A DNA stretch of 64,000 nt from Nocardia testacea NBRC 100365 (GTDB lineage: Bacteria; Actinomycetota; Actinomycetes; Mycobacteriales; Mycobacteriaceae): the NCBI RefSeq assembly GCF_000308775.1, contig NZ_BAGJ01000086.1, positions 1 through 64,000 of the forward strand, in the 5' to 3' direction. Numbering within the stretch: the stretch's first letter is position 1; each line of letters begins with the position of its first letter. The translations under genes were made by a program, and so were the position numbers. The notes beneath the pieces were generated by a model. That model made no database searches. It saw only the letters and a list, made by a program, of their open reading frames with translations, and was not told the origin of the DNA. Below, one piece after another: positions 799-14,772 of this stretch.

Positions 799-2118
799 TC
801 AGCCACCGCGTTCCAGCTCCAGGCCCGCGGCCCGCCAGCCCGCGATACCACCGTCCAGGCTGTAGGCGGTGTGGCCGGTCCGGCAGGCGGTCGCGGCGAA
901 CTGCCGGGAGATATCGCCGGTGGGACAGGTGAAGATGACCGGGTGGGCCCGGGAGAACGGCGTTCCGTGTGCGAACAGGTCGGTGAGCCGGTCGTCGGGG
1001 ATATTGATGGCACCCGGGATATGGGCGACCCGGTAGGCCATGGCGCCCCGGGTGTCCACGATCACCGGTTGCCTCATGCGGATCAGTTCGGCCATTTCGG
1101 TGGGGGTGAGCCGTGGTGTGGCGGCGAGCTCGGTGATGCTCGGCGGCCGGGGGCCGGCATCGCGGCCGAACAGGTCCGGGCGGCGCTGTTCGATATAGGA
1201 CAGGTAGGGCTCGAGCCGGTCGCAGACGATGATCACCCCGACAGTGCGCTCGCCGCCGCGCTCGCCGCGTCCGAGCACTTCGCGCGCGGCGGCGTAGGCG
1301 GCGCCGCTGGTGGGCCCGGCCAGGACACCGTATCCGGTGGCGAGTTCGAGTGTGGCCTCGATCGCCGGGCCCGATCCCACGGTCCGGATCTCGTCGTAGA
1401 AATCGGGCTGGAACAGGCCGACCTCCCACATCTCCCGTTCCGACCGGATTCCGGGAATGAAGTCCTCACGTTCGGAGACCACCGCGACCGTCCGCAATTC
1501 GGGATGGAATTTCCGCAGGTAGCTGCCTGCTCCCCGGCTCGACCCGGTGGTGCCCAGACCGCCGAACAGGTAGTCGATCCGCTCGATCCCGGCGGCGGTG
1601 AGGTCCTCGTGGATCTCCCGGCCGGTGCCGTCGTGATGGGCGGCGATGTTCTTCTCGCTGGTGTACTGGGACAGATGCCGGAATCTGCCGGGTTCGGCGG
1701 CCATGGCCGCGTCGATCGCCGAGTACACGTCATTGGGTGTGGTGGGATCCGGGCATTCGGACAGGCCGGGGAGTTCGACGATATCGGTGCCGATCAACCG
1801 GAGCAGATCGCGCACCTCACCGACCTTGATCCGATTGGTCATGGCCCGCAATCCGATACCGTGGATCGCGCCGAGGATGCGCAGCGCCTTGGCGGTGTTG
1901 CCGCTGGACGCCTCGATCAGCGTCCGCCGCTGCGCGCGCAGCGTATCGAGTTCGTCGCGCAGCATCGCCCAGGCGACCCGGTCCTTGACCGAACCGAACG
2001 GATTATGCGATTCGAGTTTGGCGTACAGGTCCACCCCGTCGAGGCCGTGCACGGCCGGGTCCAGGCGGAGCAGGGGAGTGTCACCGATCAGTTCGGTGAT
2101 GTGCTGGTGGATCGTCAC
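799..2118 (-). CDS. Cysteine-synthase-like PLP enzyme fused to rhodanese
   Basis: Fold-type II PLP enzyme of the CysK/SbnA group with a C-terminal rhodanese domain, 439 residues. Residues 5-320 carry the PLP lysine in NPFGSVKDR (K45), the SSGNT substrate loop (71-75), a GGLGTTGSSRG phosphate loop and GPTSGAA. Residues about 335-439 form a rhodanese with an intact active-site loop starting at Cys398 (CPTGDISR). The open frame reaches 67 codons further upstream, but the GTG at 2118 is preferred: it overlaps the stop of the preceding gene as GTGA and removes an unlike N-terminus. This is the last gene of a four-gene coupled operon. The family normally joins a nucleophile to an activated serine; the fused rhodanese suggests persulfide sulfur as donor, which is inference. 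Confidence 0.88.
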   Translation of the reverse strand: MTIHQHITELIGDTPLLRLDPAVHGLDGVDLYAKLESHNPFGSVKDRVAWAMLRDELDTLRAQRRTLIEASSGNTAKALRILGAIHGIGLRAMTNRIKVGEVRDLLRLIGTDIVELPGLSECPDPTTPNDVYSAIDAAMAAEPGRFRHLSQYTSEKNIAAHHDGTGREIHEDLTAAGIERIDYLFGGLGTTGSSRGAGSYLRKFHPELRTVAVVSEREDFIPGIRSEREMWEVGLFQPDFYDEIRTVGSGPAIEATLELATGYGVLAGPTSGAAYAAAREVLGRGERGGERTVGVIIVCDRLEPYLSYIEQRRPDLFGRDAGPRPPSITELAATPRLTPTEMAELIRMRQPVIVDTRGAMAYRVAHIPGAINIPDDRLTDLFAHGTPFSRAHPVIFTCPTGDISRQFAATACRTGHTAYSLDGGIAGWRAAGLELERGG

Positions 2119-3608
2119 GGAACCTCGGGTGCGTCGGAGTAGGCGGGGGATGACGGCGGCCGGTAGTCGGCGTCGGGTGTGGTCAGGAAGCGGCCGCCGT
2201 GGCCGGTTACCACCACCTTCTCCGCCGGGGGGTGCATGGCGGCGGCGGCCGCCGACAGATCCATGTGGTAACCGGCCGTATTGGGGAAGACGATCAGGTC
2301 GCCCGGGCGGGGCAGCCACGGCAGCCAGACCGTATGCGCGGTAACGAGATCCCTTTCCAGGCAGAGCCGCCCGGCCAGGAAGACGCCGGCGGGCGGGCCG
2401 TCCGGTGCGATTCCGTCCCCCGGCAGCAGGAGGGGGTCGGCCATCACTTCCTGATCGGCCGGTGTCACCGTGTCCCGGCTGATGTCGAGGTGGACGAGCA
2501 CGCTTCCGTCGGCGGCCTCCTTCGCGAATTCCACTCGGGCCACCGTGATCCCGGCGTGGTCGGCGAGGGCTTTGCCGGGCTCCAGCCAGATGTCGAGGAG
2601 ATTGTCGGCGGCCACCCGGGCGACACTGCGGCCGCCGTGCCGGCCGAGCGGGGCGGCCAGGAAATCTGCGAGCATCTCGGCGGCGGACACGGTGTTGGCG
2701 TATTTGTGGAAGACCGGTGTCCCGCGTACCGCGCCGCCGTCGACCTGGTAACCGAACGTGTTGCTACCCCAGCTCATCGGTGCGCCGTGACCGGCGAGCG
2801 CGGCACGCAGCCGGTGCACGTAGTCGTCGAATCGGGCGCCGTCGGCGGTGAACACCTGGCGAAGTCCGCCGCCGATGTTCAGGACCGACGGTGCGAGTCC
2901 GGCCGAGTATGCCTGTTCGAGTAGCGCGAAACAGGTATCGGCGGCCCGCACCCGTTCGGCGGTATCACCGGTATCGAGGTGAAATGCCGTACCGCGGAAC
3001 ACCAGCCGATCCCGGTGCCGCGCCAGCAGTTCGAGCGCGCGATCCACCCGCTGCACCGGGATACCGAAGCGGCTCACCTGCGACCCCGCAAATCCGCTGA
3101 CTCGGAGCAGGACCGGCACCGGTGCGGACCGTTCGGCGAGATCGGCGAGGGTGCCCAGCTCCCATTCGTTGTCGATGTTCACGGTCACGCCGGTACCCAC
3201 CAGTGCCCGGAGGAACGTCTCACCCTTGGGTCCGGTCACCTCGATCCGGCCGGTGTCGAAACCGGCCGTCAGCGCCGATTCCAGTTCACCGGCCGAGGCC
3301 ACGTCCACACCGATTCCGTGGGCCGCGGCCGTGCGTACGAAGGCCCGGGATCGGTTCACCTTGTGCGCGTAGCAGAGGCGATAACCGGTATGTGCCTCGT
3401 CGAGTACCTCGGTGAGCCGGTCGATATTGCGTGCGAACACCTGCGGGAACAGCAGATGCAGTGGTGTCCCGAAGCGGTCCAGCACCGCGTCGAGGGCGCG
3501 GCGATCGGCGAGGAACGCCGCGACGAGCCGATCCCAGCGTGCCGGTAGGGCAGGTGGCCCGGTGTGCTCGGTGGGTTCCGGACGGTCCGGATGCGGCCGA
3601 ACGGTCAT
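2115..3608 (-). CDS. Y4yA-type fold III PLP-dependent decarboxylase
   Basis: Alanine-racemase-fold PLP enzyme related to diaminopimelate/ornithine decarboxylases, 497 residues (LysA is about 420-450). The Schiff-base lysine is K83 in YAHKVN, followed by HLDTGD, the glycine loop NIGGGL, EPGKALADHAG (normally EPGR) and the paired-active-site Cys in GRLCLERD. The best match by eye is the Y4yA group, whose founder on the Rhizobium NGR234 plasmid lies, as I recall, beside a cysteine-synthase-like gene and siderophore-synthetase-like genes. Both ends are coupled: the start ATG overlaps the upstream stop as ATGA, and the stop overlaps the next start as GTGA. It probably decarboxylates or otherwise processes an amino-acid conjugate made by its neighbours; the substrate is unknown. 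Confidence 0.87.
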   Translation of the reverse strand: MTVRPHPDRPEPTEHTGPPALPARWDRLVAAFLADRRALDAVLDRFGTPLHLLFPQVFARNIDRLTEVLDEAHTGYRLCYAHKVNRSRAFVRTAAAHGIGVDVASAGELESALTAGFDTGRIEVTGPKGETFLRALVGTGVTVNIDNEWELGTLADLAERSAPVPVLLRVSGFAGSQVSRFGIPVQRVDRALELLARHRDRLVFRGTAFHLDTGDTAERVRAADTCFALLEQAYSAGLAPSVLNIGGGLRQVFTADGARFDDYVHRLRAALAGHGAPMSWGSNTFGYQVDGGAVRGTPVFHKYANTVSAAEMLADFLAAPLGRHGGRSVARVAADNLLDIWLEPGKALADHAGITVARVEFAKEAADGSVLVHLDISRDTVTPADQEVMADPLLLPGDGIAPDGPPAGVFLAGRLCLERDLVTAHTVWLPWLPRPGDLIVFPNTAGYHMDLSAAAAAMHPPAEKVVVTGHGGRFLTTPDADYRPPSSPAYSDAPEVP

Positions 3609-4882
3609 CCGGGACTGCCCGGGTGTACCGGTTCCGGCCGTTCGCCGACGGGGTTGTAGCCGCCGTCGCGCAACGCTTCGAAGGCGCGGGCCCGGTTGCG
3701 CGGGCTGCGGAACTCCGCCACGACCCGCTTGCTGTCGAGGTCGATGTCCACGACGCGGATGGACATCGACTCCAGTACTCCGCCGATCGTGCGCACACAG
3801 TGCTTGCAGGTCATATCCGGTACATAGAAGATGCGGTCCTCTGCCGCCGCCGGTCCCGTGCCGAAATTTTCCCGAGCCGCCACCGCCACCGGTTCGCAGC
3901 GCCCGGCGATATCGGTGAACACCTCGACGAAGCGGTGTACCACGTCGGTGAGCACGCTGTAGTTCGTGCCGCTGTCGCGGTGTGTGACCGCCGCCGGGCA
4001 GGAGGACTGCTCACCGGGTGGTAGCAGGGCGTACTGCCGGGAGATGAGATCCAGATCGTCGTGATACCGGGCGATCGCCGCGGGTACGGTCAGTCCCTCC
4101 TCGGTGGTCGCCCGGGCCATCACCCGGTGCGCATCGGCAATGGTCGCCTCCTTCATCGCCCGCAGCGTGGCGATCGACTCGGCGGTGTATCGCACCGGAC
4201 CGCCGGGTTCGACGCGCAGGCTCACCGGGATCATGCCTCGTCGATAAGTCGATGCCTGCAGTTCCCAGAACCAGCGGGTGGCAACCGCGGTGAAGATCCC
4301 GGAATCTCGCATTACGCAGGCGAACTCTTCCGGAGTCCGGTACGGCGTCTGCCGCGCGATGAGGGCGTGCTGGGCCAGCGCCCGGCCCGCGGACTCCACG
4401 CCCACCCGGAAGATATCGATGGGGTCGTGATCGGTGGTCGTGCCGGCCAGAACTGCGTGCGCCGCCGCGTCGAGACGCGCAATCCGGTCGGCGAGGCCGG
4501 GGTTGTCGTCGATCGATCGCCAAAGCGCGAGTACGGCTTCCCGGGCGGCGATCGGCACGACCGGGCCCGGCCCGTCGGCACGGTAGAACCCGGTATTGGG
4601 CACTCCGGCGCTGTCCACCCAGGTCATCCGGTGGGACGCGGAGGTGACCGCGCCGGCGGGACAGGGTCGCATGAACCGTTCCAGATACAGCCGTTGCGAA
4701 AATGTCAGATGACTGCCGGGTTCGGGGCGCAGTTCGGTCGCGGTGTATTCGAACCGGGTAGTTCCGGCCGGCCGGTGGGCGGCGAAGAGTCCGGGCCGGG
4801 CGAGTTCGGCCAGGATCCGTGCGGTGGCCCGCCGGTCGTACCGGGTGGCGGTATCGGTGGATGCGCTGATCTCGGTGCTCAT
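3605..4882 (-). CDS. Unknown protein with C-terminal HMA (CxxC) domain
   Basis: 425-residue protein in two parts. Residues 1 to about 335 match no family I recognise: soluble, mixed helical, rich in Arg and His, with Trp/Phe clusters near residue 220 and no signal peptide or membrane segment. Residues about 350-415 are a heavy-metal-associated domain with MTCKHC (C359, C362) and the usual beta-alpha-beta pattern, as in copper chaperones. The frame is open far upstream, but the ATG at 4882 fits the ATGA overlap with the upstream gene. It is the second gene of the PLP-enzyme operon. It may deliver a metal to, or take metal or sulfur from, the product of the other three enzymes; that is inference. 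Confidence 0.8.
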   Translation of the reverse strand: MSTEISASTDTATRYDRRATARILAELARPGLFAAHRPAGTTRFEYTATELRPEPGSHLTFSQRLYLERFMRPCPAGAVTSASHRMTWVDSAGVPNTGFYRADGPGPVVPIAAREAVLALWRSIDDNPGLADRIARLDAAAHAVLAGTTTDHDPIDIFRVGVESAGRALAQHALIARQTPYRTPEEFACVMRDSGIFTAVATRWFWELQASTYRRGMIPVSLRVEPGGPVRYTAESIATLRAMKEATIADAHRVMARATTEEGLTVPAAIARYHDDLDLISRQYALLPPGEQSSCPAAVTHRDSGTNYSVLTDVVHRFVEVFTDIAGRCEPVAVAARENFGTGPAAAEDRIFYVPDMTCKHCVRTIGGVLESMSIRVVDIDLDSKRVVAEFRSPRNRARAFEALRDGGYNPVGERPEPVHPGSPG

Positions 4883-6177
4883 GGCAGCTCCTCGGCGAGG
4901 GTCCGGACGCAGTCGACGAAGCGATCGATATCGTCGAGGCAGGTGTAGACATGGGTGCTGACCCGCACCGATTCGGGGTCGCTCCCGGTTTCGGGCATAC
5001 AGTGGGCGCCGGTGCGGACGAGGAAGCCGTATTCGGCGAGGACGAAACCCAGATCGGCCGCCGATATCCCGCGGAGGGTGAACGAGACGATGCCGTATCC
5101 GGTGTCCTCCCGGGCGTGGGCGGGCCCGGGCAGGAACATCAGCCCGGGCACCGTTCGCAATCCGTGGATCAACCGCTGGGTGAGCACCCGATTGTGCGCC
5201 GCGACGGCGGGCATGCCGTAGGCCTCCAGCACCTCCAGTGCGGTGCCCAGCGAAAGGATGCCGGGGATATTGGCGGTACCGCCTTCGAGCAGGCCGGGCA
5301 TGACGCCGGTGCCGAAACCCTCGGCGGTCAGTGCCGCATCGGTACCGCCGCCGGGTAGGAAGGGCCGCAGTTGCGCGTGTGTCCGCTGCCGGCAGTACAG
5401 GATGCCGATGCCCGGTGACGCGAACATCTTGTGCGCCGCGAAGGCCGCGAAATCGGCTCCCAGCGCGGTGACGTCCACCGGGAGGTGGCCCCCGCTCTGG
5501 CTGCAGTCGAAACACAGGTGTACTCGCGGGGGAATCCGGTCGCGCAGTTCGGTGAGAGTGGTCCGGGCGCCGAATACGTGATGCAGGTGCGTCACGGTGA
5601 GCAGCCGGGTGCGCGGGCTCAGTTTCGTGGCGATATCGGCGGTATCGGCCTGCCCGGTCGCGGTGACCCGGTAGGGCACGAGTTCGATCCGGGTGCCGAA
5701 GCGGGCCAGGGTGTCCCGCAACAGGAACCAGGGTGAGATATTGGCCGCGTGGTCGCGCGGGCTGTAGAGGATCTCGTCCCCGTCCGCCAGCGCCGCGAGC
5801 CCCCAGGACAGTGCGACGGCATTGAGTGCCGCGGTGGCGCCCGCGGTGAAGACGATCTCGTCGGGCCGGGCGGCGCCTACGAACCGCGCGGTCGCGGCAC
5901 GAACCGCGGCGATGCGCTGGGTGAGCGCCGTGGACCAGGGATAGGTGCCGCGGGCGGCATTGGCGGTGGCGATCGTGTGGTAATCGCGAACGGTGTCGAT
6001 CACCGCCCTCGGCTTCTGCGTCGTGGCCGCACTGTCCAGGTAGGTCTCCCGGCTCTCGGCCAGCGCGGGAAAGGACGCGCGGACTTCCGGTGGGAGCAGT
6101 CCGGTGACCGGGGAGACCGGTGCGGGAGCGCCGGTGGAGAGAGGTGGACTATCCGGTCGGCGCAGGGGTGATCCCAT
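4879..6177 (-). CDS. Class V aminotransferase / cysteine-desulfurase-like enzyme
   Basis: Fold-type I PLP enzyme of the SufS/CsdA/isopenicillin-epimerase group, 432 residues. Visible features are the PLP lysine K250 in FAAHKMF, cofactor Asp224 in FDCSQ, THLHH (about 196-200), and Cys393 in RTGAHCMPE followed by a RVSTHVY segment, where SufS-type enzymes carry the persulfide-forming cysteine and C-terminal arginine. The first 30 residues are a Pro-rich extension. The start has a strong site, GGAAGGAG 7 nt before ATG. It is first in the four-gene operon, so its promoter should lie in 6178-6334. The likely role is release of sulfur from cysteine or a related beta-elimination; no suf or isc genes are present, pointing to a dedicated pathway. 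Confidence 0.87.
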   Translation of the reverse strand: MGSPLRRPDSPPLSTGAPAPVSPVTGLLPPEVRASFPALAESRETYLDSAATTQKPRAVIDTVRDYHTIATANAARGTYPWSTALTQRIAAVRAATARFVGAARPDEIVFTAGATAALNAVALSWGLAALADGDEILYSPRDHAANISPWFLLRDTLARFGTRIELVPYRVTATGQADTADIATKLSPRTRLLTVTHLHHVFGARTTLTELRDRIPPRVHLCFDCSQSGGHLPVDVTALGADFAAFAAHKMFASPGIGILYCRQRTHAQLRPFLPGGGTDAALTAEGFGTGVMPGLLEGGTANIPGILSLGTALEVLEAYGMPAVAAHNRVLTQRLIHGLRTVPGLMFLPGPAHAREDTGYGIVSFTLRGISAADLGFVLAEYGFLVRTGAHCMPETGSDPESVRVSTHVYTCLDDIDRFVDCVRTLAEELP

Positions 6178-6334
6178 GTGATCGCTCCTTCCGCCGATCC
6201 ATCCGGACTGCGAACAACGATACTCATTGTCGGAAAGTTCGCCCAGTGCGCTTGGTGCGCAGCCGGTTTCGCCTGCGTCGGGTACCCGCGGCGAGGTCCC
6301 GGGAGCTGTCGGTGTCCGGCGTTATGGTGCGGGT

Positions 6335-6754
6335 ATGCCACTCACACTCGACGAACGCCAGGCGTTTCTGGCCGAACCGCATATCGGTGCGCTCTCGGTA
6401 TCGGCGGGTCCGGAGCGCGGTCCCCTCACCGTGCCCATCTGGTATCAGTACGAGCCGGGCGGTGATCTCTGGGTGCTCACCGGGCCGGAATCGGAGAAGA
6501 TGCGCCGGATCCGGGCGGCGGGCCGGTTCAGTCTGCTGGCCGAGCGCGTCCAGCCCACCGTCCGCTATGTCAGCGTAGAGGGCCCGGTGACCCGGGTCGA
6601 GCCGATGACCGACGACCGGCATCGCGAGATGGTGGCGCGCTATCTGCCGCCCGAGCGCGTGGAGGAGTACCTGTCCTTCGCCGCGGCCGAACTGGGTGAG
6701 CACGTGGTCGTGTTCATGCGTCCGCAGCGCTGGTTGTCCGCCGATCTCGGCTGA
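6335..6754 (+). CDS. PNPOx-like split-barrel flavin/F420 protein
   Basis: 139-residue pyridoxamine-5'-phosphate-oxidase-like split-barrel protein. It shows the typical opening (FLAEPHIGALSV), a PLTVPIWYQYEPGG strand pair and a SLLAERVQP segment. In actinomycetes these proteins bind F420, FMN or haem and often reduce small hydrophobic molecules; the cofactor is not decided here. The frame opens 36 codons earlier, but those residues are unlike the family. A TATGGT hexamer 6-7 nt before the chosen ATG suggests a leaderless transcript. It is divergent from the PLP-enzyme operon and ends 4 bp from the convergent CBS gene. Confidence 0.82.
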   Translation: MPLTLDERQAFLAEPHIGALSVSAGPERGPLTVPIWYQYEPGGDLWVLTGPESEKMRRIRAAGRFSLLAERVQPTVRYVSVEGPVTRVEPMTDDRHREMVARYLPPERVEEYLSFAAAELGEHVVVFMRPQRWLSADLG

Positions 6755-6758
6755 GCGG

Positions 6759-7193
6759 TCAGTAGCCGCCCTGGAGGTATTCCACGAGTTGTTCCCGTTC
6801 GGTGGCAAGTTCGGAGATGGCGCTCTTGACCACGTCACCGATACTCACGATGCCGACCAGTTCACCACCGGACACCACCGGCAGATGCCGGACCCGGTGA
6901 TCGGTCATGATCCGGCGCAGCCCGTCGACATGGTCGTCGGGGGCGCAGGTCCGGACCTCGGTGGACATGATCCGTGAGACCGGGGAATCCAGTAGTGCCG
7001 CGCCGTGCCGGTACAGGGCGCGGACGATATCGCGTTCGGAGACGATTCCGGCGATCCGGCTGCCGTCGGGAGAGACCACCACGGCCCCGATATTGTCCTC
7101 GGCCAGCAGGGCCAGCAGCGCGCGGACGGTCAGATCCGGACGCGCGGTGGTCACGGCGTGGCCCTTGTTGCGCAGTATCTCGGCGATTCGCAT
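6759..7193 (-). CDS. Tandem CBS-domain protein
   Basis: 144-residue protein made of two CBS domains: about 8-60 (LTVRALLALLAEDNIGAVVV then IAGIVSERDIVRAL) and 70-125 (MSTEVRTCAPDD then RHLPVVSGGELVGIVSIGDVV). CBS pairs bind adenine nucleotides or S-adenosyl ligands and act as energy or redox sensors; stand-alone proteins of this size are common in actinomycetes. Start choice is open: 7193 fits relatives best, 7202 adds three residues, and 7265 has a weak AAGAG site and adds 24 residues of non-conserved sequence. A short C-terminal helix (residues 126-144) ends with GGY. Confidence 0.85.
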   Translation of the reverse strand: MRIAEILRNKGHAVTTARPDLTVRALLALLAEDNIGAVVVSPDGSRIAGIVSERDIVRALYRHGAALLDSPVSRIMSTEVRTCAPDDHVDGLRRIMTDHRVRHLPVVSGGELVGIVSIGDVVKSAISELATEREQLVEYLQGGY

Positions 7194-7312
7194 GGTCACC
7201 ATCCACTCGAGCGCGGGATTCCAGAATCTCGCGCTCGGGCCGCCGACGCCAGCACGAATCGGCATCGACCGCTCTTTTCTCGAGTCCGTACGGTGAGCGG
7301 GACCGCGACCGG

Positions 7313-7564
7313 TTACTCGTCGTCGAGACCCGCGGAGAGATAGGCGGCTGCGGCCAGCCACTGGCGGCACTGGGGCCCGTGCACATCGTGGATGTGCAGG
7401 ATCTCGCGGGCCTGCCGATAGGTGAGTACCGGCGGCTCGGAATTACAGTCGGTACCGGCCTCCGGGGCCGCGTAGCGGCGTAGCGGTTCCGGGTGGTGCC
7501 CGAGCGAATGACCGCCGGCGCTGCCCACGGCGTTCCGATGGGGACTTCGGAATGGTTGGATCAT
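7313..7564 (-). CDS. Small protein of the XRE/DUF397 cassette
   Basis: 83-residue hypothetical protein. The C-terminal half is predicted helical (YRQAREILHIHDVHGPQCRQWLAAAAYLSAGL); the N-terminal part is polar and probably disordered. I do not recognise a family. The ATG at 7564 is chosen because GAGGGG lies 7 nt upstream; an in-frame ATG 15 bases earlier has no such site. Support for a real gene comes from its promoter: the region at 7659-7697 carries the same element found in front of the 121-residue orphan at 10212-10577. It probably belongs to the regulon of the XRE regulator at 9250. Confidence 0.6.
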   Translation of the reverse strand: MIQPFRSPHRNAVGSAGGHSLGHHPEPLRRYAAPEAGTDCNSEPPVLTYRQAREILHIHDVHGPQCRQWLAAAAYLSAGLDDE

Positions 7565-7658: not shown

Positions 7659-7697
7659 AGTCTAAGCCGCCGTCGCTTACAAATGCAAGTACATCTG
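7659..7697 (-). promoter_or_regulatory. Shared TTGCAT promoter element, copy A
   Basis: On the minus strand, TTGCAT (7683-7688) and TAGACT (7659-7664) are 18 bp apart, a good sigma-70-type pair. The -35 lies in ACTTGCATTTGTAAG. Over about 24 bases around the -35, this copy differs from the one at 10636-10657 at a single position. It should drive the small gene ending at 7313, with a leader of about 90 nt. Confidence 0.7.
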
Positions 7698-7819
7698 CAA
7701 ACAACAGACGAAGTCGCGCGAAGCGTGTCGCCGGCACCTTCCGCGGCGATCGGCGCTGTGGCAGTGTGCCTTTCCGTCGCGCGCCGACGGCCCTCGGGTT
7801 CCGCCGCGGCGGCGGGTTC

Positions 7820-8617
7820 TCACGGTTTGCGGCCCACGCCGCCGTACGCGGAGATCGGGGGCGCGTCTTCGGTACCGGGGGTGTCCGGACGCCACCGGTC
7901 GATCGGTACAACGCCCGGCTCCACCAGTGTCAATCCGTCGAATACGGCCCGGATCTCCGACTGCGGCCGCGGGGTATAGGGCACCCCGCCGGTATCGGTG
8001 TAGTTACGGCACAGCGTCACATACGCCGCGCTGTCGTCGGTGCCGTCCCACAGGACCAGGTAGCTACCGGACGAGGTGGCCTCCAGCACGGTGTGCACGA
8101 TCCGTCGCATCTCGTCGAAAGACTGCGCGTGGCCGAGTACGCCCATGAACATGACTGCCACCGGCCGGGTGAAATCGAGGACATGGCGCGCGTCGGAGAC
8201 GATGAGCTCGGGCCGGTGATAGTCGGAGTCCAGGTAGACGGTGACACCCGCATCGGTGGTATCGGCCAGCAGCGCGCGAGCGTGGGCGAGGACGAGCGGA
8301 TCGTTGTCGACGTAGACGATCTTCGATTCCGGCGCGACCTGCTGGGCCACCTCGTGCGTGTTCTGCATGGTCGGCAGGCCGGTGCCGATATCGAGGAATT
8401 GGCGAATTCCCTTCTCCGCGGCCAGGAATCGCACCGCGCGGATGAGGAACTGCCGGGACCGGACGGCCATGGTGGTGATCTCCGGGTCGACCGCTATTCC
8501 GGCGTCACCGGCGATGCGATCGACCTCGTAGTAGTCCGTGCCGCCCATCCAGTAGTTCCAGATACGGGCGGAGTGCGGGATATCGGTGCGAATTGCGGGG
8601 CGGTGCTCTTCGGACAT
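7820..8617 (-). CDS. SAM-dependent methyltransferase, Methyltransf_19 family
   Basis: 265-residue protein of the actinomycete family formerly called DUF574. The hallmark IWNYWMGGTDYYEVDR opens the domain, followed by the SAM-binding FLDIGTGLPT, VYVDNDPLVLAHARALL and a VMFMGVLGHA strand. The start at 8617 has AGGAG 7 nt upstream; 8638 is an alternative without a site. These proteins are abundant in Nocardia and Streptomyces, often beside XRE-DUF5753 and DUF397 genes, and their substrates are mostly unknown. It lies divergent from the DUF397 gene, with a palindromic promoter between them. If the minus-strand element there is its promoter, the leader is about 215 nt. Confidence 0.86.
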   Translation of the reverse strand: MSEEHRPAIRTDIPHSARIWNYWMGGTDYYEVDRIAGDAGIAVDPEITTMAVRSRQFLIRAVRFLAAEKGIRQFLDIGTGLPTMQNTHEVAQQVAPESKIVYVDNDPLVLAHARALLADTTDAGVTVYLDSDYHRPELIVSDARHVLDFTRPVAVMFMGVLGHAQSFDEMRRIVHTVLEATSSGSYLVLWDGTDDSAAYVTLCRNYTDTGGVPYTPRPQSEIRAVFDGLTLVEPGVVPIDRWRPDTPGTEDAPPISAYGGVGRKP

Positions 8618-8840
8618 GGCGGACTCCTGGGCGGTCATGGTCGGAACGCGCCGGTACCGGTTCCGGCGGTGGGCCCGACGGCTGGTGAAACCGATGTCCA
8701 CTGCGACAGTACAAGACTCACCGCCGCCGGACCCGCTGCTCGGCGCAGTGCGAGGCGTCTCCGCCGGCGCCGTCCGAGGGCAGGTCACGGGCATGTTCAC
8801 CGGCGCCGGGGGGCGGTGAACGCGGTGTGGCGAACTTCGT

Positions 8841-8912
8841 GCTATCGTCCTGATGTCGGTGCAGATGCAAGAACACCTGCGTTTGCATCTGTAAGGACCG
8901 ACGGTATGCGAC
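8841..8912. promoter_or_regulatory. Divergent palindromic promoter, copies C1 and C2
   Basis: CAGATGCAA (8862-8870) and TTGCATCTG (8883-8891) form a perfect inverted repeat with a 12-bp spacer. Each arm contains a TTGCAT -35 facing outwards: rightwards TTGCAT at 8883-8888 with TATGCG at 8905-8910 (16 bp), leftwards TTGCAT at 8865-8870 with GATAGC at 8841-8846 (18 bp). The arms resemble the single-copy elements at 7676-7697 and 10636-10657. It probably controls the methyltransferase leftwards and DUF397 rightwards. Confidence 0.68.
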
Positions 8913-8948
8913 AGTGGCGTCAGCGACCATGAGCAAGGAGTGGGTCCT

Positions 8949-9167
8949 ATGTCGGAAGTAACGAACCAGGTGATCGGAGCCTGGCGGAAGAGCACCTTCA
9001 GCAACCCGAGCGGGAACTGTGTCGAGTTCGCCGAGGCGGCCAACAATCTGGTGGCCATGCGTAACTCGCGCTTCCCCGACGGTGGGGTGATCTTCTACAC
9101 GCGCCCGGAGATCGAGGCTTTCCTGCAGGGCGCCAAAGCCGGAGAGTTCGACGATCTGGCGGGTTGA
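8949..9167 (+). CDS. DUF397 small acidic protein
   Basis: 72-residue DUF397 protein with the family signature WRKSTFSNPSGNCVEFA and a following strand-rich core (MRNSRFPDGGVIFYTRPEIEAFL). In Streptomyces, DUF397 proteins pair with an XRE regulator (as with WhiJ) and modulate it, possibly by direct contact. AAGGAG at 8935-8940 sits 8 nt before the ATG; a GTG nine bases earlier overlaps that site and is less likely. The XRE regulator follows 82 bp downstream on the same strand, so the two probably form one transcription unit under the palindromic promoter. Confidence 0.9.
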   Translation: MSEVTNQVIGAWRKSTFSNPSGNCVEFAEAANNLVAMRNSRFPDGGVIFYTRPEIEAFLQGAKAGEFDDLAG

Positions 9168-9249
9168 GAGGTAACATGGGCCGTCGGCGTGGTGTGCCCG
9201 ATTCGATGAGCGGCGCACCGTGGGTTAACCCGAAATCGGAGACGACTCC

Positions 9250-10137
9250 ATGATCGCAGAGCCCGAGAACCGCGGTGGCACGCAATCCGTCGAGGCGGAA
9301 CGTGGCCCCACGGTTCTACGCATCGCTCTGGGCGGCCAGCTACGAAAACTGCGCGAGAGCAAGAAGATCACCCGAGAAGCCGCGGGTGACGCGATCCGCG
9401 GTTCCCATGCGAAGATCAGCCGGCTCGAACTGGGCCGGACGAGTTTCAAAGAGCGGGATATCCGGGATCTGCTGACGCTGTACGGCGTCGACGACCCGGA
9501 AGAGCGGGAGAGCTTTCTCGAGCTCGCGCGTAAAGCGAACGAACCAGGGTGGTGGCACCGCTACGGCGATCTGCTGCCACCCTGGTTCAGTACATATCTC
9601 GGTCTGGAGCAGGCCGCCAGCAAGATTCGCACCTACGAATCGCATCTGGTGCCCGGTCTGTTGCAGACACCGGATTATGCCCGCGCGGTGGTGACCCTCG
9701 GTTACGAGGATTCCGATACCGATCGCCGGGTGGCATTCCGTCAGCGCCGACAGGAAATACTGCATCGTGCCGACCCGCCGGTCATCTGGGCGGTGCTCGA
9801 CGAAGCGGCACTGCACCGTCCGGTCGGGGGCCGGGAAGTGCACCGGGCGCAGATGGAACACCTGCTGGATCTGACCCGGCTGCCGAATGTGACGATCCAG
9901 GTGGTCCCGTTCTCCACGGGCGAACATGCCGCTGCGGGAAGCTCTTTCACGATTCTTCGCTTCGCCGAGACCGAACTGCCCGATATTGTCTACCTCGAAC
10001 AGCTGACCAGCGCGCTGTATCTGGATCGGCGTGAGGATCTGGCGTTGTACCTGTCGGTGATGGATCGGTTGAGTGTGCAGGCGGCCCCGCCGGAGGAGTC
10101 ACGCAGGATCATCGCGGACTATACGAAAGGCCTGTGA
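9250..10137 (+). CDS. XRE-family regulator with DUF5753
   Basis: 295-residue one-component regulator. Residues about 27-80 are a helix-turn-helix of the XRE/Cro type (GGQLRKLRESKKITREAAGD then HAKISRLELGR); residues about 109-290 are the DUF5753 domain (WWHRYGDLLPPWFSTYLGLE, VPGLLQTPDYARAV, ITLRF-like strand near 235). This architecture is typical of the WhiJ/AbaA-like regulators of mycelial actinomycetes, paired with DUF397 partners. GGAG lies 8 nt before the ATG. It is the most likely protein to bind the TTGCAT elements nearby (inference). A closely similar paralog is encoded at 12551-13528. Confidence 0.9.
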   Translation: MIAEPENRGGTQSVEAERGPTVLRIALGGQLRKLRESKKITREAAGDAIRGSHAKISRLELGRTSFKERDIRDLLTLYGVDDPEERESFLELARKANEPGWWHRYGDLLPPWFSTYLGLEQAASKIRTYESHLVPGLLQTPDYARAVVTLGYEDSDTDRRVAFRQRRQEILHRADPPVIWAVLDEAALHRPVGGREVHRAQMEHLLDLTRLPNVTIQVVPFSTGEHAAAGSSFTILRFAETELPDIVYLEQLTSALYLDRREDLALYLSVMDRLSVQAAPPEESRRIIADYTKGL

Positions 10138-10160
10138 GGCCGGTCGAGTGACGAAAGTCG

Positions 10161-10204
10161 CCGCCCCGCTCGGCGTCTCGATTCCGGGACGACCAGCGGG
10201 GCGG
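10161..10204. terminator. Bidirectional hairpin between convergent genes
   Basis: Perfect 10-bp arms CCGCCCCGCT (10161-10170) and AGCGGGGCGG (10195-10204), with a 24-nt loop that can pair further. It lies exactly between the XRE stop and the stop of the convergent small gene. There is no T-run on either side, so termination efficiency is uncertain. Confidence 0.5.
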
Positions 10205-10211
10205 AGTTGTG

Positions 10212-10577
10212 TCAGGCCCGGATGAAGGTGGAAGCGACGCGCCAGAAGGTGTCCGGCCGCAACGATCGGAAATCCCAGTCGTCCGCCAATGCGTGAGCCG
10301 TGGTGACGATCTGGTCGATGTCGAAATCGTCGCGGGTCGCCGCACCGGTGGATTCGATTGCGTCGATAACGAATTCCACGGCCGATTCGCGTGTCGAATC
10401 GCCGAGCGGGTGGCCGCTGTGGAGGCCGAATGTTGTCATATCAATACCGTTCGCCGGCTTGCCGATCGGGGCGGGATCGATTCTTGCTGGAGTAGTTGCG
10501 AATCGGGTCGGATTCGCCGGACTCTCCCGCAGGTGCGGCAGTAAGCCACTGGCGAATGGTGTCGTCGGCTCACTCAC
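10212..10577 (-). CDS. Orphan small protein of the XRE cassette
   Basis: 121-residue hypothetical protein. The N-terminal 50 residues are polar and Pro-rich; the C-terminal 65 (FVIDAIESTGAATRDDFDID then ALADDWDFRSLRPDTFWRVA) look like a compact helical domain. I do not recognise it. The GTG at 10577 is preceded by AGGGGAGG, a strong site; the longer frame to 10691 would run through the promoter. The promoter at 10619-10657 is almost identical to that of the small gene ending at 7313, suggesting co-regulation, with a leader of about 35 nt. Confidence 0.62.
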   Translation of the reverse strand: MSEPTTPFASGLLPHLRESPANPTRFATTPARIDPAPIGKPANGIDMTTFGLHSGHPLGDSTRESAVEFVIDAIESTGAATRDDFDIDQIVTTAHALADDWDFRSLRPDTFWRVASTFIRA

Positions 10578-10618
10578 GCGGCCTCCCCTTGTTTTCCCCT
10601 GTATAGCGGTGTGGGACG

Positions 10619-10657
10619 AGTCTAGGTCCCGGGTGCTTTCAAATGCAAGTACATCTG
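10619..10657 (-). promoter_or_regulatory. Shared TTGCAT promoter element, copy B
   Basis: Minus-strand TTGCAT (10643-10648) and TAGACT (10619-10624), 18 bp apart, the same two hexamers and spacing as at 7659-7688. The flanking TGCAGATGTACTTGCATTTG is shared base for base with copy A; the spacers between the hexamers are different, so this is not simply a recent duplication of the whole region. Confidence 0.7.
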
Positions 10658-10699
10658 CACGATCGATTCTTTGTCCCTGAAGGTTTTTCAATGCCGGAA

Positions 10700-11359
10700 T
10701 CAGCGCGCCAGCGCGGCGACCGCGGCCTCTATCGGTGTGCTGCCGGTGACCAGATCCAGGGTGCGGCCGGCGGTGTGGTCCGCTTCGAGCAGTGCGGCGA
10801 GCACCGCGGCCACATCCGCGCGGGGGATATCCCCCCGGTCGAGCCGCGGTGGCGCCAGCGTGACCGACCCGGTGCCGGGTGTGTCGAGCAACCGGCCGGG
10901 TCGCAGGATGGTCCAGTCCAGGTCACGGCCTCGCAGATCGTCTTCGGCCTGGCTCTTGGCGGCGATATAGGCCGCCCACACCTCGTCGGTGCCGGCGGCC
11001 GGGGCCAGACCCGCGCCCATTGCCGAGATCTGCAGGAAGCGCCGGGTCCCCACTCGTTCGGCGGCCTCGGCCAGCAGGACCGAGCCGTCCCGATCGACGG
11101 TGTACTTGCGGGCCACCCCGCTGCCCGGCCCGGCGCCGGCCGCGAAGACCACCGCGTCCGCCCCCTGGACGGTCGCGGCCAGGTCGGTCACCACCGCCTG
11201 TTCGAGATCAAGGACCACGGATTCGGCGCCGGTCGCGTACACCTCGGGCGCGTGAGCGGCATTGCGGATCAAGGAGATGACGCTGTGGCCACGGCCGGTG
11301 AGGAGTTCGGCGAGCAGCAGGGCGATCTTGCCGTGGCCACCGGCTATGACGATGCGCAT
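10700..11359 (-). CDS. NAD(P)-binding atypical SDR (NmrA/YwnB-like)
   Basis: 219-residue atypical short-chain dehydrogenase-like protein. The nucleotide-binding motif GGHGKIA follows directly after MRIVIA; later landmarks are VVFAAGAGPGSG, ISAMGAG, the YIAAKSQAEDDLRGRDLDWTI segment with Tyr and Lys spaced as in SDRs, and RPGRL. Proteins of this kind act as NAD(P)H-dependent reductases or redox-sensing binding proteins. AAGGA lies about 7 nt before the ATG; the frame is open upstream but unlike the family. It follows the lipoprotein gene at 11374 on the same strand with a 14-bp gap, so both may be one transcript. Confidence 0.82.
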   Translation of the reverse strand: MRIVIAGGHGKIALLLAELLTGRGHSVISLIRNAAHAPEVYATGAESVVLDLEQAVVTDLAATVQGADAVVFAAGAGPGSGVARKYTVDRDGSVLLAEAAERVGTRRFLQISAMGAGLAPAAGTDEVWAAYIAAKSQAEDDLRGRDLDWTILRPGRLLDTPGTGSVTLAPPRLDRGDIPRADVAAVLAALLEADHTAGRTLDLVTGSTPIEAAVAALAR

Positions 11360-11373
11360 ACGAGGTCCTTTCG

Positions 11374-11877
11374 TCAGCGTTCGGGTCCGCCGGGATTGCA
11401 GGCGGCGTCGACGGTCGCGTCGTAGCCCACCGGCGGCCGCCAGGGTTCGAGATTCCAGGTGGGTTTGTCCGGTGCGATGAGGCGTGCCCACTCCCAGTGG
11501 CAGCGGAACTGGTCCCACATGCCGGGTGTGTCGGCGCCCGGATCGGCGCTGAGGATCTCCTGCCAGGCGCGCAGATCGGATGTGGGAAAAGTGGTGTCGC
11601 GGCCCGCCCGGGTCGGGTGCACCCTCAAACGTGGACCGTCGGCGTTCTCGGTCCATTCCAGGTGGTCGATGAGAGGTTGCCCGGCATACGGATCCACCGT
11701 GGGGGTGGGGCGGGAGGTGCGGGTCGTGGCGCCCGGCGGAGCCGTGATCGTCGTCGTGGTGGCCGCGGGGGCACTGCCGGATCCGATATCGGAGTTCGAA
11801 CTCGCGCATCCGGTGGTGACCAGCGCCGAGAGGATCGCCAATACGCCGGCCGCGCGGACCGCGGATTCGATCGGCAT
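11374..11877 (-). CDS. DUF2599-domain lipoprotein
   Basis: 167-residue secreted lipoprotein. A short signal peptide ends in the lipobox LVTTGCAS, so Cys24 should be acylated. A Thr/Pro/Ser-rich linker (residues 35-62) is followed by the DUF2599 domain (HLEWTENADGPRLRVHPT, then MWDQFRCHWEWARLIAP and a final Cys). The domain has two cysteines, probably disulfide bonded. Function is unknown; the family is common in mycobacteria and nocardiae. CAGGAG precedes the ATG by 7 nt. Confidence 0.85.
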   Translation of the reverse strand: MPIESAVRAAGVLAILSALVTTGCASSNSDIGSGSAPAATTTTITAPPGATTRTSRPTPTVDPYAGQPLIDHLEWTENADGPRLRVHPTRAGRDTTFPTSDLRAWQEILSADPGADTPGMWDQFRCHWEWARLIAPDKPTWNLEPWRPPVGYDATVDAACNPGGPER

Positions 11878-11996
11878 ACTCGCTCCTGCGCCTCGGAGCC
11901 GGCCCGCTCGTCGCGCCGGCTGCCTCCGAGCCTAGAGGGTCGTGCCGCTACGGTGCGGATCTGCCGGTGAGTGTGGCGCGCGCCGCGCCCGGCCGG

Positions 11997-12242
11997 TCAG
12001 TGCCACAGACTGTGGCAGGGTAGTCGGCGCAGACCGGGCCTGACCTGGTTGTCCACCGTCACAGTGAGTCCCGCGTGCGCTGCGGCGGAGGTGAATTCCC
12101 AGGCTTCGGCGGCGGTCGCCGCGTATTCCAGGACGAGGGCGCTGCCCGCGGCGCTGTCGTCGAAGTAGACCGTGACCCGGCGGGTGAGCTGGTCGCGGGC
12201 GATGTCGTCGCGTTCGGCCGTGGCCGGTGTCGTGGCGTCCAA
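11997..12242 (-). CDS. Small hypothetical protein beside second XRE gene
   Basis: 81-residue protein with a beta-strand-rich core (TRRVTVYFDDSAAGSALVLEY, then EFTSAAAHAGLTVTVDNQV) ending in RLPCHSLWH. I do not recognise a family. A TTG start at 12242 is proposed because AAGGAG lies 9 nt upstream; the frame continues to 12317 but with Arg/Cys-rich sequence that looks non-coding. It is divergent from the second XRE-DUF5753 regulator, the same arrangement as other orphans that accompany such regulators. Confidence 0.5.
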   Translation of the reverse strand: MDATTPATAERDDIARDQLTRRVTVYFDDSAAGSALVLEYAATAAEAWEFTSAAAHAGLTVTVDNQVRPGLRRLPCHSLWH

Positions 12243-12550
12243 GATCCGCGTCTCCTTCCGGGCGTCTCGTCGGCGCCGTTGTGTGCAACAGTAAGTTCGC
12301 ACCATTGCTGAGAACATGTTCCGGTTGCGGGTCTGGGGAATTCACAGCCGGCCGCATCCAGAGCTCGGTGCGGTTCACCACCGGTTGGCGCCTGCGGGTC
12401 GTGCCTTCCTCGGCAGGGGCGCCGGGTATGAATCGCATCGCAGCGTCCGCATCAGCGAGTCCGATCGCGGGTCCGGCCTCCGGCGAATGTCGTTCATGCC
12501 ACGACTGTTTCGTTTGGTCTCCGGCACCGCTCCCATGCGAAACTCGAATA

Positions 12551-13528
12551 ATGGGTGCTTCTGGAATGCGATCGGCGTTGGAGGCGGAGACCTCGGCCGG
12601 CCCGGCGGCGACGGCGCGAGTCGCGACCGACGGTGGGCCGACAGTGCTGCGGATGGTGCTCGGTGGCCGGTTACGGCGGCTGCGCGAGGCCAGCGGGTTG
12701 TCCCGGGAACAGGCCGGGGACCATATCCGTGGTTCGGATTCGAAGATCAGCCGGCTCGAGCTCGGGCGCACCAGTATCCGTGAACGCGATCTGGTGGACC
12801 TGCTCGAGCTGTACGGGGTCACCGATAGCGAGGAGCTCGACGCGTTCCAGGAACTCGCCCGCCAGGCCAATACCTCCGGGTGGTGGCACCGGGACAACGA
12901 TTGGCTGCCGAAGTGGTTCGATATGTACCTGGGTCTCGAGCAGGCCGCCCAGGTGATCCGCTGTTACGAACCGCGTACTGTGCCGGAGCTACTACAGACC
13001 GCGGACTACGCGCGCGCCCTGCTGACACTCGCACATCCGGGGGAGCCGGAGGACGCGATCGAACGCCGGGTAGCGCTGCGGATGCGCCGCCAGCACATTC
13101 TCGACCGGCCGCATCCACCGCACCTGTGGCTGATCGTGGAGGAGGCCGCCCTGACCCGCCGCATCGGTGGTTCGAGGATATGGGGCGCGCAGATGGACCG
13201 GCTGCTGGCCGCAGCTCGGCAGCCGCACATCACGGTGCAGATCCTGGCCGACCATGTGGGCGGCCCGGCACTGGCCGACGGCGCGTTCACCTATCTGCGG
13301 TTCGCCGAGGCGGATCTCCCCGATATCGTCTATCTGCAGCAGCTCACGGGCGCTCTCTATCTCGACAAGCAGGCGGACCTGGACGCCTACCGCGCGGTCG
13401 CCAATCAACTGTCGGTGCACGCGGCACCGCCGGAGTACACCCCGGGCCTGCTGACGGCTCTGCGCCGGCGCCAGCCCCGGATCATGGATCAGCCGGCCCG
13501 CCGGGAACCGGGCGGCACGGGTCGCTGA
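12551..13528 (+). CDS. XRE-family regulator with DUF5753 (second copy)
   Basis: 325-residue paralog of the regulator at 9250. The HTH is at about 37-90 (LGGRLRRLREASGLSREQAGD, DSKISRLELGRTSIRERD) and DUF5753 at about 118-300 (WWHRDNDWLPKWFDMYLGLE, VPELLQTADYARALLTL). It has an N-terminal extension of about 10 residues and a basic C-terminal tail relative to its paralog. The frame is open 108 codons upstream, but conservation starts here; no ribosome site is visible and the ATG could be leaderless. No DUF397 gene lies beside it, unlike the first copy. I did not find the TTGCAT element in its upstream region. Confidence 0.87.
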   Translation: MGASGMRSALEAETSAGPAATARVATDGGPTVLRMVLGGRLRRLREASGLSREQAGDHIRGSDSKISRLELGRTSIRERDLVDLLELYGVTDSEELDAFQELARQANTSGWWHRDNDWLPKWFDMYLGLEQAAQVIRCYEPRTVPELLQTADYARALLTLAHPGEPEDAIERRVALRMRRQHILDRPHPPHLWLIVEEAALTRRIGGSRIWGAQMDRLLAAARQPHITVQILADHVGGPALADGAFTYLRFAEADLPDIVYLQQLTGALYLDKQADLDAYRAVANQLSVHAAPPEYTPGLLTALRRRQPRIMDQPARREPGGTGR

Positions 13529-13585
13529 CCGCCCGCGACACTCGCCGGTGTCGCACCGAATTGCCCGATTCTTGCTCTGCCAGGG

Positions 13586-13599
13586 GGTAACTCGTTACC
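13586..13599. promoter_or_regulatory. Inverted repeat upstream of PucR-like gene
   Basis: GGTAAC-TC-GTTACC is a perfect 6-bp inverted repeat about 105 bp upstream of the PucR-like ATG, in an otherwise empty 176-bp gap. It could be a repressor site; no protein can be assigned. Confidence 0.35.
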
Positions 13600-13704
13600 G
13601 TCTTGTGATCGAACCCAATCCGCGGGCCGGTCGCTGATGAACTCTCCGGAGTAGCGGTAGATCGTATCGATCGGCCGCGGGGGAGAGGTTACTGTCCGGT
13701 AGTT

Positions 13705-14730: not shown

Positions 14731-14772
14731 TGGATGAACCGGGTGGGCGCGAGCTCTTCTGCGAGGTGTGAG

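Follow-up and report, generated by a model that had tools for sequence, protein, structure and literature searches.

A four-gene operon of three PLP enzymes and an HMA protein kept throughout Nocardia, with a putative role in a sulfur-transfer pathway

The window analysed here is a stretch of 64,000 nucleotides at the start of contig NZ_BAGJ01000086.1 of Nocardia testacea NBRC 100365. Four open reading frames on the minus strand were verified between positions 799 and 6177, together with all three 4-nt junctions between them, which lie exactly where the initial annotation had put them (Table 1). The genes, here called DES, HMA, Y4YA and CYSRHO in the direction of transcription, encode a desulfurase-like enzyme, a protein with a C-terminal HMA domain, a decarboxylase-like enzyme and a cysteine-synthase/rhodanese fusion. 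These family assignments, already proposed in the initial annotation, are right in outline, i.e. all four proteins have Pfam or NCBIfam profile matches: Aminotran_5/SufS-like for DES, HMA (PF00403) for the HMA protein, Orn_Arg_deC_N for Y4YA, and PALP plus Rhodanese for CYSRHO.

Table 1. Positions of the genes, domains and junctions in the window
Feature	Position	Strand	Basis
Extended -10-like promoter element TGAGTATCGT, upstream of DES	6217..6226	(-)	conservation; function inferred
DES: SufS-like class V PLP enzyme, 432 aa; K250, C393	4879..6177	(-)	profiles, alignment
DES/HMA overlap, ATGA	4879..4882	(-)	sequence
HMA protein: orphan N-terminal domain and C-terminal HMA, 425 aa	3605..4882	(-)	profiles, fold model
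Orphan N-terminal domain, residues 13-340	3863..4846	(-)	fold model, fold searches
HMA domain, residues 349-412, M357-x-C359-x-x-C362	3647..3838	(-)	Pfam, fold match
HMA/Y4YA overlap, ATGA	3605..3608	(-)	sequence
Y4YA: fold-III decarboxylase-like PLP enzyme, 497 aa; K83, H210, C416	2115..3608	(-)	profiles, alignment
Y4YA/CYSRHO overlap, GTGA	2115..2118	(-)	sequence
CYSRHO: CysM-like cysteine-synthase domain and rhodanese, 439 aa, GTG start; K45, R225	799..2118	(-)	profiles, alignment
Rhodanese domain of CYSRHO, residues 338-430, active-site C398	829..1107	(-)	Pfam, alignment

The four-gene order, with all genes assigned, was found in 51 of 57 named Nocardia loci. The six exceptions are two loci cut by contig ends, three without DES and one in which a decarboxylase match has no assigned ORF. 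With start codons set by script, the HMA-Y4YA overlap is 4 nt in 54 of the 57 loci, the DES-HMA overlap is 4 or 34 nt in 50 and the Y4YA-CYSRHO overlap is 4 or 1 nt in 50. Overlaps and gene order repeated across this many loci place the arrangement beyond chance, and the conserved junctions back the earlier suggestion that the four products are made together. The putative promoter element has the form TGNGTAT[C/G]GT in 48 of 55 regions upstream of DES.

The four-gene block is a genus trait of Nocardia. HMA and CYSRHO were each present in 148/148 genomes, DES in 138/148 and Y4YA in 95/95. In two genomes (G669 and G755) HMA is separated from Y4YA-CYSRHO, with all genes still kept. The searches made found one of the operon proteins outside Nocardia in a single genome, which belongs to another family. 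We note some details of scoring: two CYSRHO matches in G658 were taken as one gene split over contigs, DES of G695 is only a piece at a contig end, and N. crassostreae (L069, L180 = G676), whose DES is frame-disrupted with both halves conserved, was counted as DES-present since the DES search matched; it has no second CYSRHO. The DES of G763 is intact and carries an insertion. Phages yielded no Y4YA relative at E<=1e-10, and plasmids yielded CYSRHO at E<=1e-40 only in two Streptomyces records. A description of the operon was not found in the titles and listings of the literature on the gene combination, the fusion or Nocardia core genes.

DES resembles the SUF-type SufS enzymes in fold, PLP lysine and catalytic cysteine loop, as seen in the alignment with 1t3i. 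The PLP lysine K250, the presumed persulfide cysteine C393 and the PLP-stacking histidine H143 are found in 33/33 aligned rows; the L069 row has a frame shift at C393, and its true continuation likewise carries the cysteine. It is apparent that C393 is kept although the loop around it is variable. DES differs from SufS in that it reaches 302.6 bits against a curated NCBIfam cut-off of 475.1 and has an alanine at the position of the NVHRG histidine of the best solved SufS match; for these two reasons its substrate may not be cysteine. DES also lies outside the SUF operon; judging by the gene calls, the same genome has another SufS-like gene within a SUF-type cluster at a different locus (L142). 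An assignment to the family 2A encapsulin cargo desulfurases was rejected: DES scores 243.5 bits against the NF041166 cut-off of 800, matches only profile positions 229-623 and lacks the long N-terminal extension.

The catalytic residues of the other two PLP enzymes are equally well conserved. In Y4YA, the PLP lysine K83, the catalytic cysteine C416 of the C-terminal domain and the GGG motif G246-G248 occur in 32/32 rows. In CYSRHO, K45 and R225 are invariant in 34/34 rows, and C398 of the rhodanese domain is found in every one of the 32 rows in which the gene call extends over it. R225 aligns with R220 of M. tuberculosis CysM, the O-phosphoserine ligand of that enzyme, and is by this alignment probably the corresponding O-phosphoserine arginine. 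The rhodanese loop reads CPTGDIS and lacks the arginine that is presumably usual there. Two solved chains, 8h4q and 8h4h, match CYSRHO from the PALP domain into the following rhodanese region (26-375 of 439 residues). Both were deposited as 'Rhodanese domain-containing protein', and a literature search found no paper for either entry.

The HMA protein is composed of a small domain of metal-chaperone fold and a much larger region ahead of it. The HMA domain scores 26.6 bits with PF00403 (gathering score 24.8, residues 352-391), while one member (L071) falls below that score with 21.5 bits. M357, C359, H361 and C362 are invariant in 21/21 aligned members, and the domain superimposes on the metal chaperone GolB (4y2i; Z 9.8, rmsd 1.4 over 63 residues) and on copper Atx1 (2xmv; Z 9.2). 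The predicted ligand motif is consistent with Cu(I). The approximately 340 residues ahead of this domain have no Pfam or NCBIfam match, and Pfam found nothing in residues 1-290 at E up to 10. PDB sequence profiles and whole-protein PDB fold searches returned only HMA. The fold model of the orphan domain is of good quality (pLDDT 84.6, pTM 0.85); searched alone, it gave no Foldseek match at E<=0.001 in PDB or BFVD, and its best VIA Z was 3.9. The modelled fold is possibly new, a missing match not being enough to establish this. The conserved residues E163, H172, E207, H274 and D278 brought to mind a helical di-metal oxygenase fold, which was dropped as support for it was not found.

A second cassette, found in Streptomyces and other actinobacteria, contains the three PLP enzymes without HMA. 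The three PLP genes are in constant order at 16/16 second-type loci, all of which have the rhodanese domain (two in a shifted frame), and all three genes are present at 18 further second-type loci in Nocardia. The Streptomyces-type cassettes usually add a methyltransferase gene; apart from it and the trio, no gene family is common to more than 4 of the 16 loci. HMA is absent from all 34 second-type loci read, so it is dispensable for the core chemistry.

The second cassette also bears on the ten Nocardia genomes that lack DES; N. ignorata, N. coubleae and N. rosealba are species of this kind. All ten carry a second cassette with its own DES, as opposed to 9 of the 138 genomes with DES (Fisher p 9e-11, no phylogenetic correction). 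In other words, DES is absent only where the second cassette supplies another one; the one possible counter-case is the frame-disrupted DES of N. crassostreae, where there is no second cassette. DES state changes 4 times on the HMA tree, and an independent-pairs test of DES loss has 4 pairs only (p 0.25-0.5), a number that cannot reach significance. A purely housekeeping desulfurase had been named in the initial annotation as a finding that would count against its pathway. The replacement pattern in all ten genomes speaks against such a role and suggests that DES is a dedicated desulfurase.

Taken together, we tentatively propose, at slightly less than even confidence, that the operon's enzymes relay sulfur into a small PLP pathway whose putative product is a small sulfur-containing amine. 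By homology and by its invariant cysteine, DES would load C393 with sulfane sulfur drawn from cysteine or a similar amino acid, and the persulfide would then pass to C398 of the CYSRHO rhodanese domain. The CysM-like domain would convert O-phosphoserine or a similar substrate to an aminoacrylate, to which it would add the protein-bound sulfur. Y4YA would decarboxylate the resulting sulfur amino acid or conjugate to an amine, and in Nocardia the HMA protein might act on, carry or metal-load the product, the soft metal probably being Cu(I). Were the product again cysteine, transfer of sulfur from cysteine to serine would achieve nothing, so that either acceptor or product has to be a different one. 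Coenzyme M, capnine (via cysteate synthase) and fluopsin were considered and dropped, since there was no reason to prefer any of them.

Mycobacteria offer a precedent in the MoeZR - CysO - CysM route, in which sulfur from a rhodanese reaches a CysM that uses O-phosphoserine (PMC3227635). The operon would resemble this route in having an O-phosphoserine-using CysM relative with the matching arginine, protein-borne sulfur and a rhodanese-type domain that carries the sulfane sulfur. Compared with the route described there, the operon fuses the rhodanese to the synthase, has no CysO or adenylation domain, and adds a dedicated desulfurase, a decarboxylase and HMA. CYSRHO would thus join in one polypeptide the jobs of MoeZR, CysO and CysM.

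The initial annotation had favoured a sulfur-containing conjugate or a metallophore. The sulfur-centred part is supported, as are the synteny, the co-expression and the case against a mere housekeeping desulfurase. The metallophore part is not supported. In staphyloferrin B biosynthesis, CysK-like SbnA and LysA-like SbnH make the precursors, and the operon has the same pairing of PLP enzymes. By analogy, CYSRHO would add an amine to O-phosphoserine and Y4YA would decarboxylate a diaminopropionate conjugate, with DES and the rhodanese as accessories. A counterpart of R225 is expected in SbnA-type enzymes as well, and the neighbourhoods of Y4yA relatives point in this direction. Three rhizobial-type records show these relatives beside genes for a CysK-like enzyme, opine dehydrogenase and IucA/IucC (two with an annotated MFS gene, two with an iron ABC transporter). 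In Sulfitobacter they occur together with a gene that bears the annotation SbnA, and in M. avium and N. farcinica their neighbours are CysK-like, ornithine cyclodeaminase (OCD) and MATE genes. The neighbourhood that the initial annotation gave for Rhizobium NGR234 was also right, i.e. Y4yA adjoins a cysteine-synthase gene on pNGR234a, as in the operon. Y4YA is 32.8% identical to the NGR234 gene over 87% and about 31-34% identical to plasmid genes annotated Y4yA over 85-89%. The NGR234 cluster (y4yB-y4yA-y4xPONM), the role of which is termed enigmatic in PMC3973906, differs from the operon in having a ParB-domain gene, opine dehydrogenase, IucA/IucC and MFS, and no annotated desulfurase, rhodanese fusion or HMA.

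However, typing of the operon and three neighbouring genes found no SbnB/OCD, opine dehydrogenase or IucA/IucC, and likewise no MFS, iron ABC transporter or MATE. CYSRHO scores far below the cut-off of the SbnA model (TIGR03945; 123.4 against 349.95 bits; one second-type CYSRHO reaches 142.7), and beyond the trio and the methyltransferase no family recurs in more than 4 of the 16 second-type loci. Iron and copper boxes (IdeR, CsoR-like and RicR-like consensus) show no excess over single-base shuffles in the 55 upstream regions. The Zur consensus has a mean of 9.27 of 15 versus 8.17 in shuffles; this slight excess is attributed to the extended -10 and upstream elements common to related sequences and is not counted as evidence; a zinc link of the operon may exist. 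As a siderophore-type pathway would also leave the invariant cysteines of DES and the rhodanese unexplained, we consider it quite unlikely, though the first of the alternatives.

Next in our ranking, and improbable, is a natural-product line in which DES is a non-desulfurase class V PLP enzyme with C-C, C-N or C-S lyase chemistry. Lines of three PLP enzymes have parallels in loline LolC, LolD and LolT and in ustiloxin UstD, the logic of which the trio fits; DES is divergent from SufS, and in one second-type cluster (L124) an MFS gene and two genes of ATP-grasp type separate DES from the methyltransferase. Nevertheless, C393 is retained in every row despite its variable loop, the rhodanese domain is present at every second-type locus, and presence in every examined Nocardia would be unusual for a specialised metabolite. 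We place after it, at a low probability, the delivery of a Cu-S or persulfide group onto a target enzyme, with HMA bringing copper and DES and the rhodanese bringing sulfur. The HMA fold with its M-x-C-x-x-C motif and the sulfur-carrier cysteines agree with such a role, which leaves the decarboxylase and the synthase domain unexplained and does not fit second-type loci without HMA. Cysteine or sulfide homeostasis, with CYSRHO as a beta-lyase or persulfide former in redox or sulfide balance, is least probable, since the rhodanese and desulfurase combination suits it but it has no need for a decarboxylase and the similarity of CYSRHO to the L-cysteine desulfhydrase Cds1 is weak, far under the cut-off (34.2 against 600 bits).

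The sulfur relay proposed above can be extended, at a confidence that makes the full version unlikely, to a Nocardia-defining pathway in which DES, CYSRHO and Y4YA would make a new low-molecular-weight sulfur amine (a thiol or persulfide), the orphan/HMA protein would load or sense its metal complex, and the sister cassette of Streptomyces and other actinobacteria would have spread horizontally and make a related methylated compound. The three-enzyme relay is a concrete proposal that can be tested in vitro, the orphan domain is a target for structure work, and the loss of DES only beside a second cassette is a natural replacement experiment linking the desulfurase to the pathway. Being kept in all 148 genomes, the locus should underlie something basic to Nocardia, and a product that proved to be a new cellular thiol or metal ligand would have implications for copper and oxidant handling in these bacteria.

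The three gene overlaps claimed in the initial annotation are all present in the window, whose host genome is 7.3 Mb. DES, the first gene product of the operon, is a class V PLP enzyme whose nearest family is SufS (302.6 bits, against a curated SufS cut-off of 475.1). By family typing Y4YA is a fold-III decarboxylase, and in CYSRHO a cysteine-synthase domain is joined to a rhodanese. In the HMA protein the HMA domain comes after approximately 340 residues that matched no Pfam or NCBIfam family.

Coordinates of the operon, its surroundings and features of individual loci
Feature	Sequence	Position	Strand
Four-gene operon, transcribed in the order DES, HMA, Y4YA, CYSRHO	window	6177 down to 799	minus
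PPOX (F420-type) and CBS-domain genes adjoining the operon	window	6227-7370	
Extended -10-like element TGNGTAT[C/G]GT	window	6226-6217	
HMA protein with Ala/Pro-rich tail	L072, N. stercoris	7944-9836	
Second cassette in which two ATP-grasp-type genes and an MFS gene separate DES from the methyltransferase	L124, Streptomyces-like genome G643	7661-16442	
Y4yA relative with cysteine-synthase, ornithine-cyclodeaminase and MATE genes	L133, Mycobacterium avium plasmid pMAH135	6181-11672	
TauD/clavaminate-synthase-like, ornithine cyclodeaminase, Y4yA relative, cysteine-synthase, MATE	L138, Nocardia farcinica NCTC11134	6553-12776	

A scan for the HMA protein with one genome per species gave 67 loci, i.e. 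57 from Nocardia and 10 others. In the latter the similarity was confined to the surroundings of the HMA domain; all named loci with the full protein (57/57) belong to Nocardia. The four-gene order, which the initial annotation had proposed to look for in other genomes, was complete with all genes assigned in 51 of these 57, and the junctions were tight throughout: the HMA-Y4YA overlap was 4 nt in 54, the Y4YA-CYSRHO overlap 4 or 1 nt in 50, and the DES-HMA overlap 4 or 34 nt in 50, the 34-nt value depending on the start codon chosen. The operon is real and conserved, not a chance arrangement. In whole Nocardia genomes, HMA and CYSRHO were each found in 148/148, Y4YA in 95/95 and the operon-type DES in 138/148. 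Among 298 genomes drawn from the order, one outside Nocardia (G033) had a full-length HMA protein (54% identity), the 12 remaining non-Nocardia matches being short or weak; at class level (394 genomes) matches at E<=1e-15 came from the 4 Nocardia and from no other genome. The gene order in G033 is that of Nocardia; its DES, Y4YA and CYSRHO contain frame breaks (assembly 74% complete). CBS-domain, XRE-like and PPOX genes neighbour the operon in 45, 44 and 39 of the 57 Nocardia loci, respectively, and such recurring flanking genes fit its vertical inheritance.

We note that the PPOX and CBS-domain genes occupy the same place in many Nocardia loci as in the window. The N. fusca HMA protein (L027) is 91% identical to that of the window, and the N. 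stercoris protein bears a tail of approximately 200 residues. Fragments of HMA protein on contig 15 of Nocardia G254 (L023-L025; 50-72% identity, with a stop) are probably a decayed second copy.

A CYSRHO search of the 394 class-level genomes returned 15 non-Nocardia genomes and a second copy in Nocardia G021. Thirteen of the 15, G021 and two Streptomyces plasmids from a protein search made up a set of 16 second-type loci, all 16 with the order Y4YA, CYSRHO, DES. A class I methyltransferase lies near this trio in 13 of them (directly next in line in 12), and beyond these genes no family was common to more than 4. At E<=1e-5 the HMA protein was found in 0/34 second-type loci (the 16 and 18 further Nocardia), while the positive control L026 was found. 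The rhodanese is in a shifted frame in two second-type loci (L126 and L127). The arrangement in L124 resembles a natural-product cluster.

Ten Nocardia genomes possess HMA, Y4YA and CYSRHO without the operon-type DES, and no DES was seen around the HMA gene in any of the ten stretches read. All ten have a second CYSRHO. Among the 138 DES-bearing Nocardia two CYSRHO matches occur in ten, or nine after setting aside G658, whose double match is taken for one split gene. All 19 Nocardia second-type loci (L140 and L141 standing for G665 and G768, matched by coordinates) contain the trio, with Y4YA broken in G021. DES absence was associated with the second cassette (Fisher's exact p 9e-11, uncorrected for relatedness). 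On a tree built from 71 HMA proteins the absence corresponds to four changes, all ten DES-less rows carrying the second cassette; an independent-pairs test gave a median p of 0.25 from four pairs, a number that cannot reach significance. N. crassostreae has a frame-disrupted DES and no second cassette. In G669 (L146, L153) and G755 (L150, L154) HMA lies far from Y4YA-CYSRHO; all components are kept, and the second cassette is the sole source of DES. A further SufS-like protein is encoded in the window's genome and in all three DES-less genomes searched for one. It is suggestive, though not proven, that loss of the operon DES is confined to genomes with a sister DES, despite this additional protein, which speaks for a dedicated role of DES and against a purely housekeeping desulfurase, the outcome that the initial annotation regarded as refuting its proposal.

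Active sites were compared with Nocardia and second-type members aligned together. DES K250, H143 and C393 are kept in 33/33 rows (L069 is frame-shifted at C393, its true continuation also having the Cys), Y4YA K83, H210 and C416 in 32/32, and CYSRHO K45 and R225 in 34/34. The rhodanese C398 is kept in all 32 rows that reach it, two second-type rows stopping earlier by frame shift. DES is without the histidine of the NVHRG stretch present in its best solved SufS match, which counts against a plain desulfurase; its substrate may be other than cysteine. R225 aligns with the arginine in the GVYALRNMDEG segment of M. tuberculosis CysM, presumably R220, the O-phosphoserine ligand. Compared with the mycobacterial MoeZR-CysO-CysM system, CYSRHO looks like a shortened version, its rhodanese being built into the synthase. 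In mycobacteria the carrier CysO supplies CysM with sulfur; MoeZR forms the thiocarboxylate of CysO, sulfane sulfur on the rhodanese-like domain of MoeZR being the proposed source (PMC3227635).

The HMA domain resembles the metal chaperone GolB (4y2i; Z 9.8, rmsd 1.4 over 63 residues) and copper Atx1 (2xmv; Z 9.2). Its motif is M357-x-C359-x-x-C362, with M357, C359, H361 and C362 invariant in 21/21. The N-terminal domain, modelled alone, gave a confident structure (pLDDT 84.6, pTM 0.85) for which Foldseek found no match at E<=0.001 in PDB or BFVD (best VIA Z 3.9), a result that falls short of proving a new fold. Many polar residues of the domain are invariant, a pattern to be expected of an enzyme or of a domain that binds a ligand.

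Upstream of the operon the -10-like element was present in 48 of 55 regions, with conserved positions approximately 45 to 20 nt further upstream. Of the iron- or copper-responsive boxes that the initial annotation proposed to look for, IdeR, CsoR-like and RicR-like consensus boxes showed no excess.

Finally, Y4yA relatives elsewhere were compared. In three rhizobial-type records Y4yA is adjoined by ParB-domain, cysteine-synthase, opine-dehydrogenase and IucA/IucC genes, with an iron ABC transporter in two; in Sulfitobacter an annotated sbnA gene is found nearby; the relatives from mycobacteria and N. farcinica are accompanied by cysteine-synthase, ornithine-cyclodeaminase and MATE genes. Such arrangements look like Sbn-like sets. 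On pMAH135 the set adjoins genes for CsoR, a copper ATPase and a multicopper oxidase, and has the appearance of a precursor cluster of Sbn type within a copper island. The N. farcinica cluster, its genes named by reading the sequence, is separate from the four-gene operon.

Among the typed genes of the operon and second cassette (part of the 64-kb window was typed) no Sbn-like partner was found. The initial annotation had envisaged a sulfur-containing amino-acid conjugate or metallophore pathway, with SbnA/SbnH pairs as a parallel; its sulfur part is better supported than its metallophore part. Homology, the invariant residues and the replacement of the desulfurase gene lead us to infer that the operon may act by a sulfur mechanism. 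In contrast to the Sbn-like sets, the operon and second cassette add sulfur-transfer modules and are without those partners among the genes typed, and we therefore read both as employing the same two families, decarboxylase and synthase, for a different purpose based on sulfur.
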